Of a stretch of DNA of 64,000 bases, positions 22,607-39,296 are shown one piece after another. This stretch comes from Mariniblastus sp. Lineage in GTDB: Bacteria; Planctomycetota; Planctomycetia; Pirellulales; Pirellulaceae. The position numbers and the translations under genes were made by a program. Every line of letters begins with the position of its first letter. Position 1 is the stretch's first letter. The notes below the pieces were generated by a model. It saw only the letters and a program-made list of their open reading frames with translations, was not told the DNA's origin and made no database searches. Location of the stretch: contig JAQXDZ010000022.1 of NCBI GenBank assembly GCA_029251085.1, positions 23,522 through 87,521 on the forward strand. The letters are read 5' to 3'.

Positions 22607-23836
22607 ATGACAGAAAAGATTAAGTTTATCCATTCTTCAGATTTTCATCTGGATGAGCCAATTCGTGGCCTGCAGCAGCTGCCTCAGCAACTTATGGAAA
22701 CACTCGCGGAGGCTCCTTACCTCGCGGCAGAGAGTGTCTTTGATAAAGCAATTACTGAAAAAGTTGACTTCGTTTTGCTTTCAGGAGGGCTTTGTAATCT
22801 CGAGCAGTTGAGCGCACGGGCCGTTGCGTTTTTGATTAAACAATTCAATCGATTAGAACAAAAAGATATTCTAGTTTACTGGTGTGGGGCAAAAGAGGAC
22901 GCGGCTGACCAATGGCCAGGAGCAATCAAGCTGCCAGACAATGTTTATCAGTTTCACGCTCGGTCCGTCGAGCATTTAGATTTTCGAAAAGATGGGAAGT
23001 CCTTAGCGAGGATCATTGGTGCGGGGTGTGACTCCAAACCCGTGGCAGGCGACCTGTTAGGGTGCGTGGATGATGATGTCTTCAATGTCGTTTTAGCTCA
23101 CGCGGATTCAGAAGTCACAGCATTCGACAGCGATGCGATCAACTATTGGGCACTCGGTGGCCGGTCAGTATCCTTGACTGAAGAGTACGACAACTCAGTT
23201 ATTGTTTACCCGGGGCCACCTCAGACGCGCGAGTTTCATTCGGGAGCGCCCGGTGGATTCAAATTAGTTCAATTGCACCAGTCCCGAAAGACAAACGTCC
23301 GCACGATTAGGGCAGATCGAGTCCACTGGTGTTCTCAGGTTGCCGAAATCCAGGATCATTCAAGTTTGGATGATGCGAAGAATCAATTCGGTGAACTTGC
23401 TTTCCAGCTTGCCGCTGAACATTCTGAGCAAGCCATTTTATGCCGTTGGCAGTTTGTGGTGACCGGACCAGAGGCAGTCAATCCGGAGTATGGAATTGAG
23501 TGGCGGGCGTCACTGCTGGACTGGCTGCGGGCTGAGTTCAGTGGGGCTGGCAATGGTCTGTGGTCGGTCAGTCTTGAGGAAAAAACTAAGGGTGATCTTC
23601 CTAATCAGTTGTATGAGGAGGAAACATTACTTGGCGAATACCTCAGGGCTGTGGGGCGTTATCAAAGTGACGATGAGTTACGTTTGAATTTGCAAAATTA
23701 TTTGAAAGATGATGTGCCACGTTGGGAAACTGATGGGCTGGCGATTGTCAATGAACAGCAGCGGGTAGAGATTTTGTCCAAGGCAGCTATGCTCGGAATG
23801 AGTTGTCTGGGAGGGCAGGCTGTTCCCCCAGTTTGA
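22607..23836 (+). CDS. YhaO/SbcD-like metallophosphoesterase-fold protein with degenerate active site
   Basis: This 409-residue protein resembles the Mre11/SbcD-type nuclease YhaO and precedes a YhaN/SbcC-like ATPase, the usual order for this pair. The fold start is clear (IKFIHSSDFHLDEPI, keeping Asp and His of motif I). Three of five metal-binding motifs are altered: the usual GDxxD reads GGLCN, the usual GNHD region reads GAKEDA, and the GHxH near residue 185 reads GGRS. A histidine survives in VLAHADSE. This argues that the protein has lost, or changed, two-metal nuclease activity and may act as a structural partner. The gap to the next gene is 69 bases on the same strand. Confidence 0.82.
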   Translation: MTEKIKFIHSSDFHLDEPIRGLQQLPQQLMETLAEAPYLAAESVFDKAITEKVDFVLLSGGLCNLEQLSARAVAFLIKQFNRLEQKDILVYWCGAKEDAADQWPGAIKLPDNVYQFHARSVEHLDFRKDGKSLARIIGAGCDSKPVAGDLLGCVDDDVFNVVLAHADSEVTAFDSDAINYWALGGRSVSLTEEYDNSVIVYPGPPQTREFHSGAPGGFKLVQLHQSRKTNVRTIRADRVHWCSQVAEIQDHSSLDDAKNQFGELAFQLAAEHSEQAILCRWQFVVTGPEAVNPEYGIEWRASLLDWLRAEFSGAGNGLWSVSLEEKTKGDLPNQLYEEETLLGEYLRAVGRYQSDDELRLNLQNYLKDDVPRWETDGLAIVNEQQRVEILSKAAMLGMSCLGGQAVPPV

Positions 23837-23905
23837 ATATTACTGGCGGGTGGAGGTGTCAGGGTGGCGAAGACAAAATTAAAACTGCGTTAAAGGAGTT
23901 CCGCG

Positions 23906-26900
23906 GTGAAAGTAAAAGATTTTGAAGTGGATGGATTTGGCGTTTGGAAAGGGCTTGAAGTCGAGCAGGTTTCCAAAGAGTTAACGGTGTTCTGCGGTTA
24001 TAACGAAGCTGGCAAAACAACGCTGATGCAATTTGTGCGCTCGATGATGTTCGGGTTTTCCTCGCCACGGCTTGAGAAATACTCGCCTCCTGTTTACGGA
24101 GGTTTGGCTGGAGGAACTGTGGGATTGTCTACATCCGTCGGTAGTTTTGAAGTACAGCGTCACGTTGATCCAAATCGCTACCACGACTCCGTGGGAGACC
24201 TCGTGGTGATCGACAGCCATGATGGCGCGGTACACGGCCCAACTAAACTACAGTCGCTTTTGGGGGATATTGACGAATCTATCTTCACGAATGTGTTTGC
24301 GATTGGTTTGCAAGAAATTCAAGAGTTGGGAGCACTGAATAGCACTGCAGCGGCTGATCAATTGTATAAATTGGCAAATGGATTGGATCGCGTATCTTTA
24401 GTTGACGTAATGCGAAACCTCTCCCAGCGAAGGGACGCCATTTGGTCAGGACAAAATGGGAATCGGGCAAGGCTTGCGATACTTGGGAAGGAGCGGGAGT
24501 CACTTTTAAAAGAGTTGGAATCCCTGAAGCAGAGGTCTAAGGATTATTCGCAGTTGGCAAACAAGGTTGTCGAAGTCGGCTATCGTTTAGAGGAGCTGGC
24601 CAAATCCTTGAAAGAAAATGATCGGCAGTCCAGGGTTTTGGAGGTGGCAATTCAAGTTTCGGAACGTTGGCATGATCGCGTTTCAGTCGCTCGGCAAATT
24701 CAAGAATTTGGGACATTGCCAAATCGGGACGAGGTCTCGATTGTGAAACTTGATCGAATCAACGAGGAGATCGCCCATCAGCGGGAGCGAATTGAAAATT
24801 TTCGGGAGCAACGACTGGAAATTAAAAAGGATGGTTCAGCATTGCCTATCAAGCCACTTCTCTGGGCGCAAAAGGCTCGCATTGAAGCTCTTGCCGAGCA
24901 TACTCCGTGGATTGAATCGTTACAGCGTCAGTCTGTCCGCTTGGAAGCGGAAATAGATCAAATTGAAAACAGTCTCGTTGGAGAAGTGGATGGTCTTGGA
25001 GACCAGTTGAAGATAAAAGCGAGTGACATTCGCGGCCTTGGCAATCGGGGGCTAGCCTCGCTGGAGCTTACTGGTCGAAAGCTGCAGGATCAAGAAGATG
25101 GGATCATTCAATTAGAGCACGATTTTGAAAAGACCGAATTTGATCTTGGACAGCACGAGGAGCGACTGGGGACTAGCGTGGCTCGTCAAAGCACGTCGGA
25201 GTCACTCGATGAAACTGGCAAGCAGGTAAACCGGTTGCGTCGCCGAATTGAATTAGAGCAAAAAATTGACAAGCTTAACCGTGGCAGAATGGAGTTGGAA
25301 CGCGACGTCGATTCAGTAGTAACTGAGCAGGTTCTTCCGCTTGAAAAGTTATCCATCGTTGGAGTTACCTTCATTGTAGGTGTCGTTCTGCTTGGATTTG
25401 GTTTGATAGATGCCGTTTCCGGGGGATCTTGGATTAGCCAGACTTCCACAAATATGGGCATCGTATTTGTCTTTCTGGGAACGATCGCAGGTGTGGTCGC
25501 AATGGGGTTGAAATACCATTGGGAAGGTCAAGCGAAGGAGGACTTGGAGGATTTTCGTCATCAAATTGAAATTGTTCGGCAGCAGCTGAAGCGAGCGAAA
25601 GTCGAGCGTACTGAGATCGATCGCCAGCTTCCTGAAAAGGTAAGCGGGCAATGGGAACTTGCGCTCTCAGATGCAGAAAACCGATTGGCAAGACTCGAGG
25701 AATTAGTGCCGCTTGAGGGGCGGGTTTTGACTGCGCGAGCGAATCAAGATGAGTTGAAGCGGCGGATTGCAACGCAGGAGCTCGAGGTTGAGAAAACGAG
25801 TAAGCAGTGGAAAGCAAGTTTAAGAGCTGCCGGCTTGCCGGACGTATTGCAGCCTTATCAGCTTCGAGAGATCGTTCAGCGAGCCGATCGAATCTCAGGC
25901 ATCAGTGACCGTCTGGATCACTTAAAGGCTGAACAGGTGGAGCGGAAGCGTGAACTCGAAAGCTTGAATTTGAGAATAGATCAGACGCTTCAAGAGTCAG
26001 GAGTCAATTATGCGGGAACGGAGCTAATTGACCGAATCAATCATTTGGGGCTATGCATCAATGAACAGCGTGGATTGGTCCAGCGCAGACGCGAATTTAC
26101 TCACCGCTATCGCGTCTTGAAAGCGAAGTTCGTCAAAGCAAAGCGAGAGTTAGATCGGCTGCTTGGCCAAAAACAAAGGCTACTGTCGGTTGTCGGAGCA
26201 GAATCCGAGTCGGAGTATCGCGAGTTTGATTCAGAATTAATGCGTCGAGATGCGTTGATTGAGAATCGAGATCATTTAAGCCAACAAATAGATGCAGCCT
26301 TGGGGCGGAATCATACCGAATCCCAAATCGAGGAATTGCATCAGGAATTTGGTGCTACTGGATTGGAAGCAGCCTGGGAATCCGTCCAGAAGCAAATAGA
26401 CAGTGCCCGGGAGCGACAGACCCAATTTCAGCAAGAAAGTGCAAGTTTACACCAGGAAATCAAAGTCGTGGGCGAGGATAAAGGCATGGCGCTTGCAAGC
26501 TTGAAACTTGAGGTTGTCGAAAATGAAATTGTTGAACTGAAAAAGGAATGGCAGGTACTCGCGACTGGCTCAACCATGTTGGAAGTGATTCGAGAAAGTT
26601 ATGAATCGAAGCGGCAACCGGAAACGCTCAAAGAAGCATCTAGTTTCCTGACCAAGTTGACTGAAGGAGCGTACACTCGAATCTGGACCAGGTTAATCGG
26701 AGAAGAGTTGTTGGTGGATTCGGCGGATGGCGGGTCGATTTCCGTTGATAAACTAAGCCGCGGCACACGAGAGGCCGTGTACCTAAGCTTGAGGTTGGCG
26801 TTGGTGGGAGCTTATGCGAGACGCGGGTCGGTGGTTCCAATGGTACTCGATGACGTCCTCGTGAATTTTGACGGGCGTCGAATCCAGGCGGCGGCAGAAG

Positions 26901-27379
26901 TGTTGTGCGAGTTCTCGAGGCAAGGTCACCAGGTCTTAATGTTTACCTGCCATGACCATATTCGTGATGTTTTCCACAGCCTTGCTGCGGACGTAAGGGT
27001 GCTTCCCGATCATCAGGATGTAGTGGATTCCAAGGCAATTCCGGTTCCTTATGAAGGAACTCCGAAAATGAAAGAGCAACTTGAACTGCCCACATTTAAA
27101 CCCAAGTTAATGCCTGAAGATGACCTCGTAAGTCCGGCGGCAATGGAGCCAGATGGAATACCCGTCGAATACGTTGAATATGCCTCGACAAATGTCCGAA
27201 TTGACCCTGAGCAGTACGATTCTGAGTTGGAGTTTGAACTCGCCGTGGTTGCATCCGATCAGAAGCGAGAGCAGAATTATTTGGGCGGCACCGTCTTGGA
27301 AGGCGACCATTCGATTTTACCGATGGAACTCTCAGCTGACGAAGAATTTTGGACCAAGCCGGCATCATCACTGGATTAG
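23906..27379 (+). CDS. YhaN-like AAA ATPase (SbcC/Rad50 family) with membrane segments at the hinge
   Basis: This 1157-residue protein is an SMC-like ATPase. The Walker A motif is GYNEAGKTTL near residues 32-41, long coiled-coil arms follow, and the ABC signature LSRGTREAVYLSLRLAL plus Walker B VPMVLDDVLVNFD are near residue 950-990. In the centre, where Rad50 has a zinc hook, there are two predicted transmembrane helices (about residues 479-538) and no CxxC. That suggests a membrane-anchored hinge, as seen in YhaN-type proteins. A further 130 residues of acidic, proline-containing tail follow the ATPase lobe. The start is GTG at 23906 with AAAGGAG at 23892-23898. It probably works with the preceding YhaO-like protein in DNA end metabolism. 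Confidence 0.87.
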   Translation: MKVKDFEVDGFGVWKGLEVEQVSKELTVFCGYNEAGKTTLMQFVRSMMFGFSSPRLEKYSPPVYGGLAGGTVGLSTSVGSFEVQRHVDPNRYHDSVGDLVVIDSHDGAVHGPTKLQSLLGDIDESIFTNVFAIGLQEIQELGALNSTAAADQLYKLANGLDRVSLVDVMRNLSQRRDAIWSGQNGNRARLAILGKERESLLKELESLKQRSKDYSQLANKVVEVGYRLEELAKSLKENDRQSRVLEVAIQVSERWHDRVSVARQIQEFGTLPNRDEVSIVKLDRINEEIAHQRERIENFREQRLEIKKDGSALPIKPLLWAQKARIEALAEHTPWIESLQRQSVRLEAEIDQIENSLVGEVDGLGDQLKIKASDIRGLGNRGLASLELTGRKLQDQEDGIIQLEHDFEKTEFDLGQHEERLGTSVARQSTSESLDETGKQVNRLRRRIELEQKIDKLNRGRMELERDVDSVVTEQVLPLEKLSIVGVTFIVGVVLLGFGLIDAVSGGSWISQTSTNMGIVFVFLGTIAGVVAMGLKYHWEGQAKEDLEDFRHQIEIVRQQLKRAKVERTEIDRQLPEKVSGQWELALSDAENRLARLEELVPLEGRVLTARANQDELKRRIATQELEVEKTSKQWKASLRAAGLPDVLQPYQLREIVQRADRISGISDRLDHLKAEQVERKRELESLNLRIDQTLQESGVNYAGTELIDRINHLGLCINEQRGLVQRRREFTHRYRVLKAKFVKAKRELDRLLGQKQRLLSVVGAESESEYREFDSELMRRDALIENRDHLSQQIDAALGRNHTESQIEELHQEFGATGLEAAWESVQKQIDSARERQTQFQQESASLHQEIKVVGEDKGMALASLKLEVVENEIVELKKEWQVLATGSTMLEVIRESYESKRQPETLKEASSFLTKLTEGAYTRIWTRLIGEELLVDSADGGSISVDKLSRGTREAVYLSLRLALVGAYARRGSVVPMVLDDVLVNFDGRRIQAAAEVLCEFSRQGHQVLMFTCHDHIRDVFHSLAADVRVLPDHQDVVDSKAIPVPYEGTPKMKEQLELPTFKPKLMPEDDLVSPAAMEPDGIPVEYVEYASTNVRIDPEQYDSELEFELAVVASDQKREQNYLGGTVLEGDHSILPMELSADEEFWTKPASSLD

Positions 27380-27439: not shown

Positions 27440-28420
27440 CTAACCGGCGTCCAATTTTTGTTTAAGATCGGAGAGCTTTTTCTCTGCTTCTTTGCGTACC
27501 GGTTCGATCTCTGTCTCATTGATGAGTTCAGTGAGCGCTTCGATTGCCCTAGTTTTTTTGCTTTTTGTGTTTGCTTGATCAGCACTCACGATAATTTTCG
27601 CTTCGCGTGCCAACTGTTTGTTATCTTTAGCCGTATACTTTTTTTGAAACGCGGCGAGATCAGCTTTGACCATTTTGAGGGCGCCGAAATCCTGCCGGAG
27701 CTTCAAATATCCAAGCATGGCTTTTAGCTTAGCGTCCGCCTGATCCGATTCAATTTGGCTTGCAAGATCTTTAAGTTGGTTGCGGACTTCTTCAGTAGTC
27801 TCGATGACTAGCCGATTTACTCTCAGGGCTGGTTCGGAGTAGCTTGGAATCTGCCCCGGTTCGCCGATTTTACGAACTCGACTGATTGCCTTTATCGCAG
27901 ATTCGAAATTCCCTTTTTCTTTTTCCTGAGTGAATTTGTCGGCTGCCTCAGATAAAGATTGTGCTTCTCGGGCAGACAGTATGCGTCCTGAATTTTGCAA
28001 GGCGGCAATCAACATGTTGGGAAGGTCAGGCCCACGTAAAGAGCCGGATCGGCCGTAAAGTGTTTCACCATCGGCACGTACGATAAATAGTTGTGGAATT
28101 CCATTGCCATCGGGAGTGTGGTCGCGTCTCCATTGAGCATACTCTGGAGAACTAACATCAAGCTTGATTGGCACGAACTGTGCCACGATGGGTGCAATTG
28201 ACTGATCGGTGTTGAGCCGTTTCAGTAGTGCTGCACACGGCGGTCAGGTGCTTTGACCTGCGATGGCGAAAATAGGTCGGCCACTTGCTGCCGAAATCTG
28301 CTTGGCTGCAGTGAGGCTGTCTGCTGCTACGTTTGTTTTTGTCTGAGCAGTCAGTGGCAAAGTAATGCCGGTAAAGATGGCAAGCATTGTGCCCAAGATG
28401 AGATTGTAACTTTTGAACAT
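27440..28420 (-). CDS. Exported thioredoxin-fold protein with in-frame TGA: candidate selenoprotein (Sec-Pro-Pro-Cys)
   Basis: Read through one TGA (28246-28244), this frame gives 326 residues. Residues 1-26 form a signal peptide (MFKSYNLILG then a hydrophobic core ending in LTAQ). Residues about 40-125 form a thioredoxin fold: first strand PIFAIAGQST, then the TGA as residue 59 in the motif U-P-P-C62, the strand FVPIKLDV, and the cis-proline segment GIPQLFIVRADGETLYGR (Pro108). A lysine- and glutamate-rich helical domain of about 190 residues follows. The TGA stands exactly where thioredoxins have the nucleophilic first Cys of CxxC, and the frame stays open with matching codon use on both sides. 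A hairpin lies directly after the TGA. The alternative is a nonsense mutation giving a dead 58-residue fragment. Selenocysteine insertion is inferred; selA, selB, selC and selD are not in this window. Confidence 0.65.
28216..28246 (-). promoter_or_regulatory. Possible bacterial SECIS-like hairpin after the in-frame TGA
   Basis: Counting bases after the TGA on the minus strand, bases 3-7 (GCCGT) pair with 24-28 (ACGGC), then after a small internal loop bases 11-13 (CAG) pair with 19-21 (CTG), leaving a 5-base loop CACTA (a 7-base loop starting with G if the last pair opens). Bacterial SECIS elements are stem-loops that begin within a few bases of the UGA, inside the coding region. Loop distance here, about 13 bases, is slightly shorter than usual. 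The fold was done by eye and is tentative. Confidence 0.35.
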
Positions 28421-28542
28421 GGCTTTTTTCCGGGTAGAAAACGCTGGTTTGTCTTTTCGCCAAATGGAAGGATTCAGGAATGGTCTCACGGTTGGCATGA
28501 TGAATTTTGGAGGCGAACTTTAATCGTTTGCAGGATTTGAAA

Positions 28543-39152: not shown

Positions 39153-39296
39153 ATCGTGGCTCTTGAGTTGCCTGAGAAGATTTATTGTTAGCATTTGGTG
39201 AGATCTAACATAGTGACGTGACGGCGTCTCGTCGATACTCTGCAGTTCAGGTAGACTTGAGAAAAAGTTTTCTTAATTGATAAGGGACGTCCAGCG

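Follow-up and report, generated by a model that had tools for sequence, protein, structure and literature searches.

A predicted exported thioredoxin-fold selenoprotein with a Sec-Pro-Pro-Cys motif in Mariniblastus and related planctomycetes

The stretch of DNA considered here, referred to throughout as the window, comprises 64,000 nucleotides from a Mariniblastus sp. genome (Planctomycetota; Pirellulaceae; assembly GCA_029251085.1, contig JAQXDZ010000022.1, positions 23,522 to 87,521), and our subject is a minus-strand gene within it that carries an in-frame TGA, very probably read as selenocysteine (Sec); its features are collected in Table 1. The initial annotation had described two minus-strand frames of the same phase, parted by a TGA alone, and this is confirmed; between the ATG at 28420 and the terminal TAG the sole in-frame stop is the TGA at 28246-28244, at residue 59, and the open piece 3' of it runs for 267 codons, as claimed. 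Pro-Pro-Cys follows the TGA directly, which places it, as had been noticed, at the nucleophilic first position of a CxxC motif, and the proposed cis-proline segment, GIPQLFIV, begins at residue 107 and contains an invariant proline. The signal peptide proposed for the start of the frame corresponds to a hydrophobic, signal-like N-terminus, MFKSYNLILGTMLAIFTGITLPLTAQ, judged by eye; a hydrophobic start, often ending in Ala-Gln, recurs by eye among aligned relatives, and from this terminus the product is predicted to be exported. The ATG at 28420, 58 codons before the TGA, is common to the seven closest sequences, and a possible alternative start is the in-frame ATG further upstream at 28498, which precedes the TGA by 84 codons.

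Table 1. Features of the predicted selenoprotein gene; coordinates are those of the window.
Feature	Coordinates	Strand	Basis
Whole gene, 326 residues, predicted Sec at residue 59, stop TAG at 27442-27440	27440..28420	-	Same ATG and near-equal length in closest relatives
Signal-like N-terminus, likely export signal, residues 1-26, ending ...LTAQ	28343..28420	-	By eye; low pLDDT (per-residue model confidence)
Thioredoxin_7 domain, residues 35-115	28076..28318	-	PF13899, 35.9 bits (cut-off 27); thioredoxin fold in model
TGA in frame at the start of the UPPC motif (predicted Sec59)	28244..28246	-	Aligned loci of relatives
Cys62 codon of UPPC, predicted resolving residue	28235..28237	-	Invariant in alignments A1 (28 rows) and A4 (34 rows)
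Putative SECIS-like hairpin in the RNA, with inner stem-loop at 28226-28201 and apical loop at 28216-28210	28193..28234	-	Folding against shuffles
Pro109, likely cis-proline of G-I-P	28094..28096	-	Invariant in both alignments; strand 110-114 of the model follows directly
Helical C-terminal region, residues 150-325	27446..27973	-	AlphaFold model, mean pLDDT 88.9

Nowhere else in the window does a TGA part two open pieces of the same phase that have at least 70 and 200 codons. The same triplet terminates eight of the 36 open reading frames of at least 250 residues in the window and is therefore an ordinary stop elsewhere, in keeping with the earlier view that a global change of code is unlikely. 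Another same-phase pair, of 135 and 304 codons at 39275 on the minus strand, is split by a TAA. In profile searches the window protein matched Thioredoxin_7 alone at E<=0.001, with no DsbD_TM at E<=1, no PDZ domain in Pfam and no match in NCBIfam of June 2026. Thioredoxin_7 was matched at E<=0.01 in all 28 of 28 family members, and an SHD1 domain, often following the helical region, is found in many relatives. The VIA-align rows cover mainly residues 28-145, that is, the thioredoxin part rather than the helical region.

One line of evidence for the Sec reading is the persistence of the TGA among relatives. We searched 241 family genomes in six frames, the window genome included, and obtained matches at E<=0.001 in 112, many of these being to other thioredoxin proteins; we read 65 loci, namely the 49 best matches and 16 weaker ones picked from the list. 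The aligned codon is TGA in 47 of the 49 best matches (the window gene included) and Cys in two (G218 and G217), and TGA persists at this site down to about 28% protein identity. Recurrence at the same aligned codon makes chance or sequencing error very unlikely, and a misreading of TGT or TGC, which had been named as a possible refutation, is likewise very unlikely because the TGA recurs across many separate assemblies. The 16 weaker loci have Cys at the motif in 15 cases and U-P-R-C in one; the latter, a protein of the same genus (L075, 1429-2370, plus strand, in G137), is too distant to count as a family member, stands outside the 47 and perhaps represents a further Sec family. A seeming TGA case, L083, was excluded from the counts since its TGA sits at another site. 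In a named genome collection TGA was found at 36 of 40 loci and TGC at four; all 40 are planctomycete metagenome assemblies by title, with Mariniblastus, Rubripirellula, Rhodopirellula and Pirellulaceae represented, and many are the same assemblies as in the 241-genome set. When 392 genomes sampled across the phylum were searched, five had a match at E<=1e-15, namely the window genome itself, one doubtful TGA form and three Cys forms from a different family within the class. A quick tree of 49 selected rows, of which 38 are Sec and 11 Cys, has several long branches and was used just for the count of label changes; the Sec label needs to change three times on it, compared with a mean of 10.1 in shuffles, and none of 500 shuffles was as low. 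Close homologues mostly carry TGA, with a Cys minority.

The protein is under strong purifying selection both 5' and 3' of the TGA. Among seven close sequences (21 pairs), the ratio of non-synonymous to synonymous rates (dN/dS) ranges from 0.042 to 0.112 in the part that follows the TGA and from 0 to 0.281 in the part that precedes it. The possibility raised at the outset, that homologues would all have Cys while this copy decayed, is contradicted by these low ratios on both sides and by the prevalence of TGA among close homologues.

Just 3' of the TGA lies a predicted RNA hairpin resembling a selenocysteine insertion sequence (SECIS) element. According to the bacterial SECIS model as outlined in PMC13188914, the apical loop lies 16-37 nt after the UGA and has 3-9 nt, with a G in its first two positions, an upper stem of 4-16 bp and a minimum free energy (MFE) of -7.5 or lower, and some elements depart from this model. 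The window hairpin has an apical loop of 7 nt, 27 nt after the TGA, at -10.3 kcal/mol (z -2.45), within the limits for spacing, loop size and MFE. In 31 of the 47 TGA sequences, chosen to be less than 85% alike, the best hairpin whose apical loop falls 16-37 nt past the TGA was set against synonymous-codon shuffles and proved more stable than these, with a mean z of -2.0, negative in 30 of the 31; a coarser repeat gave -2.01, negative in 29 of 31, with six control offsets at -0.36 to 0.23. At the same site in five Cys homologues z was -0.5 to 1.1. Loop spacing proved unspecific (23 of 30 control hairpins at offset +50 likewise fell at 27-32 nt), and weight is therefore placed on the z-scores. 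Synonymous difference is also reduced near the TGA, at 0.23 in codons +1 to +16 compared with 0.45 in codons +20 to +264 and 0.52 upstream (five close sequences, the near copies L022 and L026 being excluded), and the eight lowest of 312 eleven-codon windows begin 10-17 codons 3' of the TGA. The hairpin adds independent support for the Sec reading.

Selenocysteine decoding, for which the initial annotation had pointed to selA, selB, selC and selD, appears to be fully provided for in the window genome, where selA (592.8 bits), selB (367.1), selD (255.5) and the selenocysteine tRNA (tRNA-Sec, 67.4) each score above their curated cut-offs, the tRNA having a UCA anticodon by eye. Across the 241 genomes, selA exceeds its cut-off in 39 of the 47 TGA genomes and in 81 of the 194 others (Fisher p = 2e-7, a value to be read with the caution that related genomes are not independent). 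We examined selB and tRNA-Sec in the window genome and in the eight TGA genomes without selA over its cut-off, four of which (G125, G138, G179 and G186) carry one or both above cut-off. A genome with the Cys form need not have lost the Sec system: G218, which has Cys, keeps selA and tRNA-Sec above cut-off. The selD of the window genome (L019, contig C164) lies inside a 738-residue frame whose N-terminal extension looks, by eye, like a pyridine-nucleotide-disulphide oxidoreductase.

Taken together, TGA conservation, the sel genes, low dN/dS and the hairpin support the proposal that the TGA is a functional Sec codon, insertion itself being inferred. We consider it very likely that the gene encodes a Sec59 selenoprotein, a thioredoxin-fold protein, predicted to be exported, with a UPPC motif and a helical region. 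The TGA at residue 59 would be read as Sec by the SelA, SelB, SelD and tRNA-Sec encoded in the same genome, with the hairpin as the likely SECIS. The product would be exported and, to judge from sequence and model, would have its Sec-Pro-Pro-Cys active site in a thioredoxin-fold domain, with the helical region after it. By analogy with the thioredoxin family, the protein would probably act in the cell envelope by thiol-disulphide exchange, in which Sec59 would attack as the nucleophile and Cys62 would resolve a selenenylsulphide intermediate. At a guess, a partner protein may be held or selected by the helical region and, in relatives, by SHD1; the electron donor could plausibly be a DsbD-like membrane protein of the same genome, which has a TGA in its own thioredoxin domain.

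Several observations weigh against this interpretation, or against parts of it. The window loop, CUCAACA, lacks a G in its first two positions (a G is found there in 17 of the 31 sequences), and directly under it are just 3 bp. A single consensus RNA fold gave no pair from 35 of the 47 aligned UGA-proximal sequences, because the hairpins shift position, and it was for this reason that the synonymous-codon null with control offsets was used. Most of the hairpin falls in codons +5 to +15, whose synonymous difference of 0.30 is only the 34th lowest of the 312 windows, and the minimum falls over the 3' part of the hairpin and beyond. In four of the 47 TGA genomes (G135, G141, G187 and G229) none of selA, selB and tRNA-Sec exceeds its cut-off; the completeness of these assemblies is 80, 71, 77 and 91%, respectively. 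Export was assigned by eye from the N-terminus, no functional link was found in the gene neighbourhood, and the redox direction and partner of the window protein are guesses.

Among the alternatives, the one that survives best accepts Sec insertion and gives the protein another role, as a dedicated envelope chaperone or oxidant-responsive switch in which a thioredoxin domain is joined to a helical region, as in YbbN/CnoX. When the model was searched with Foldseek, the top two matches were 3qdn (a putative thioredoxin of Salmonella, E 1.8e-4) and, in second place, 3qou (E. coli YbbN, E 2.0e-4), both aligned over nearly the full length, but the overlay is poor, with template-modelling (TM) scores of 0.25-0.29 and a root-mean-square deviation of about 13 A (for 3qou, 0.26-0.29 and 13.4). 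YbbN is a thioredoxin domain joined to a tetratricopeptide repeat (TPR) domain and resides in the cytosol, whereas the window protein looks like an exported one; no TPR model matched it, and TPR_6 was found in one of 28 relatives. We regard such a role as unlikely.

It is very improbable that the locus holds two short genes, with an exported peptide of 58 or 84 residues ending at the TGA and a protein of 248 residues starting at a GTG at 28186. All five close sequences compared keep that GTG codon, and gene callers do divide the gene in this way. We collected 33 and 44 proteins with two queries, the second of which scored just the candidates sharing most words, and 73 of these 77 database relatives begin 3' of the TGA site and so are without the active site. 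The four that cover the site (P0044, P0046, P0051 and P0055) all have Cys, as CPAC or CGAC. However, the stretch from TGA to GTG encodes PPC and the helix of the thioredoxin fold and shows conservation at the protein level between genera, each of the Cys homologues is encoded by one uninterrupted gene, and a thioredoxin fold so split would be without its active site. Some of the 77, e.g., P0034 and P0078, are partial relatives only. Many entries among P0035-P0077 start after the site and have SHD1 as their sole listed Pfam domain; judging from their protein sequences, these are probably selenoproteins of this family cut at the 5' end.

Decoding of the TGA as some other amino acid, through a genome-wide change of code or a suppressor tRNA, would equally leave the frame open, since it stays open under any reading of TGA. 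We consider this extremely improbable given that TGA ends eight of the 36 long frames in the window, that the sense codon at the site in the loci and proteins read is Cys, the usual replacement for Sec, and that the genome has tRNA-Sec and the complete sel set. It is scarcely credible that the gene is a pseudogene or the TGA an error of assembly, for although a nonsense change from a Cys codon (TGT or TGC) to TGA takes a single base, an identical TGA stands in many assemblies at identities as low as that given above, dN/dS is low on both sides, and no other stop precedes the gene end.

The likeness of the window protein to known systems is partial. It shares with the C-terminal domain of DsbD and with TsoB a Thioredoxin_7-type domain in which the redox pair occupies the same position, but unlike them it is free-standing and predicted to be exported, and no membrane domain was found in it. 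Human AGR2 and Rp19 (1sen; TXNDC12) have about 130 resolved residues and lack the helical C-terminus of the window protein; both are eukaryotic proteins of the endoplasmic reticulum and are not known to contain Sec. With known thioredoxin-fold selenoproteins of the UxxC type (thioredoxin, the PF13098 thiol:disulfide interchange protein and a thiol-disulfide isomerase-like protein, as given in Table 1 of PMC13188914) it shares Sec at the first position of CxxC, a bacterial Sec system and the existence of Cys homologues; it differs in combining Thioredoxin_7 with a long helical C-terminus, often joined in relatives by SHD1. The Trx7/PDZ selenoprotein NF041199 likewise has a Thioredoxin_7-type domain with Sec in its motif, but this is listed in PMC13188914 as CxxU rather than UxxC. 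Its model did not match the window protein at E<=1 and reached at most 16.2 bits (cut-off 300) among ten members listed singly, and eight of 28 relatives matched weakly (best E 1e-4). GOS_C (NF045500), described from marine metagenomes in PMC2398784, shares the thioredoxin-like fold and UxxC, but is annotated in PMC9312934 as cd02973 TRX_GRX_like rather than Thioredoxin_7; no hit to NF045500 at E<=1 came up for the window protein or nine relatives, in a library whose inclusion of this model is unconfirmed.

The use of Sec in planctomycetes is already known, because two members of the phylum with Sec machinery and selenoprotein candidates are reported in PMC4807772, which lists the candidates in its S9 Table. 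A catalogue of 119 selenoprotein families or subfamilies appeared in 2026 (PMC13188914); the combination of Thioredoxin_7 with a helical C-terminus, often followed by SHD1, is in no row of the catalogue as it stands there, and the main text of that paper holds no word beginning with planctomyc. Our literature searches found no report of this planctomycete family, which may nonetheless stand in the S9 Table of PMC4807772. The best reading is that the sequences, with the model of the window protein, represent a new family of exported Thioredoxin_7 selenoproteins whose C-terminal region is helical and often precedes SHD1. This would add a conserved selenoprotein family to a phylum unmentioned in the main texts of the selenoprotein papers examined, and the 73 shortened relatives exemplify where automatic annotation cuts off an active site.

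In-frame TGA codons occur in three of the eight Thioredoxin_7 matches of the window genome, this gene included. One of the others (L126, contig C28, 1-1866, plus strand) is DsbD-like, combining DsbD_TM with Thioredoxin_7, and has the TGA first in a C-terminal U-P-T-C motif; the second (L132, contig C14, 1333-2046, minus strand) is a 238-residue Thioredoxin_7 frame with the TGA in U-G-W-C. By pattern, the TGA was seen at the motif of the DsbD-like gene in 10, and at that of the 238-residue frame in 9, of the 12 loci read in the genus for each, the window genome's own included. It is conceivable, if rather doubtful, that many planctomycetes of the family possess an envelope Sec relay, in which a Sec-containing transporter of DsbD type (UPTC) feeds several Sec-containing Thioredoxin_7 proteins; were this true, the window protein and the UGWC protein would be among the recipients, and the whole chain would use Sec where other bacteria have Cys. 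With these two further candidates in the same genome, the locus offers a testable case that aquatic planctomycetes carry out thiol chemistry dependent on selenium in their envelope.

Gene order around the selenoprotein gene is kept among close relatives only. A comparison with plasmids and a PADLOC search gave no match. For the upstream gene, of Gfo/Idh/MocA type (PF01408), blastp links a relative at 16 of 41 loci (40 loci and the window). Convergent with the selenoprotein gene, a gene that looks phosphoesterase-like by eye adjoins an AAA_27 ATPase gene (22607-27379, plus strand), the two resembling, again by eye, an SbcCD-like pair.
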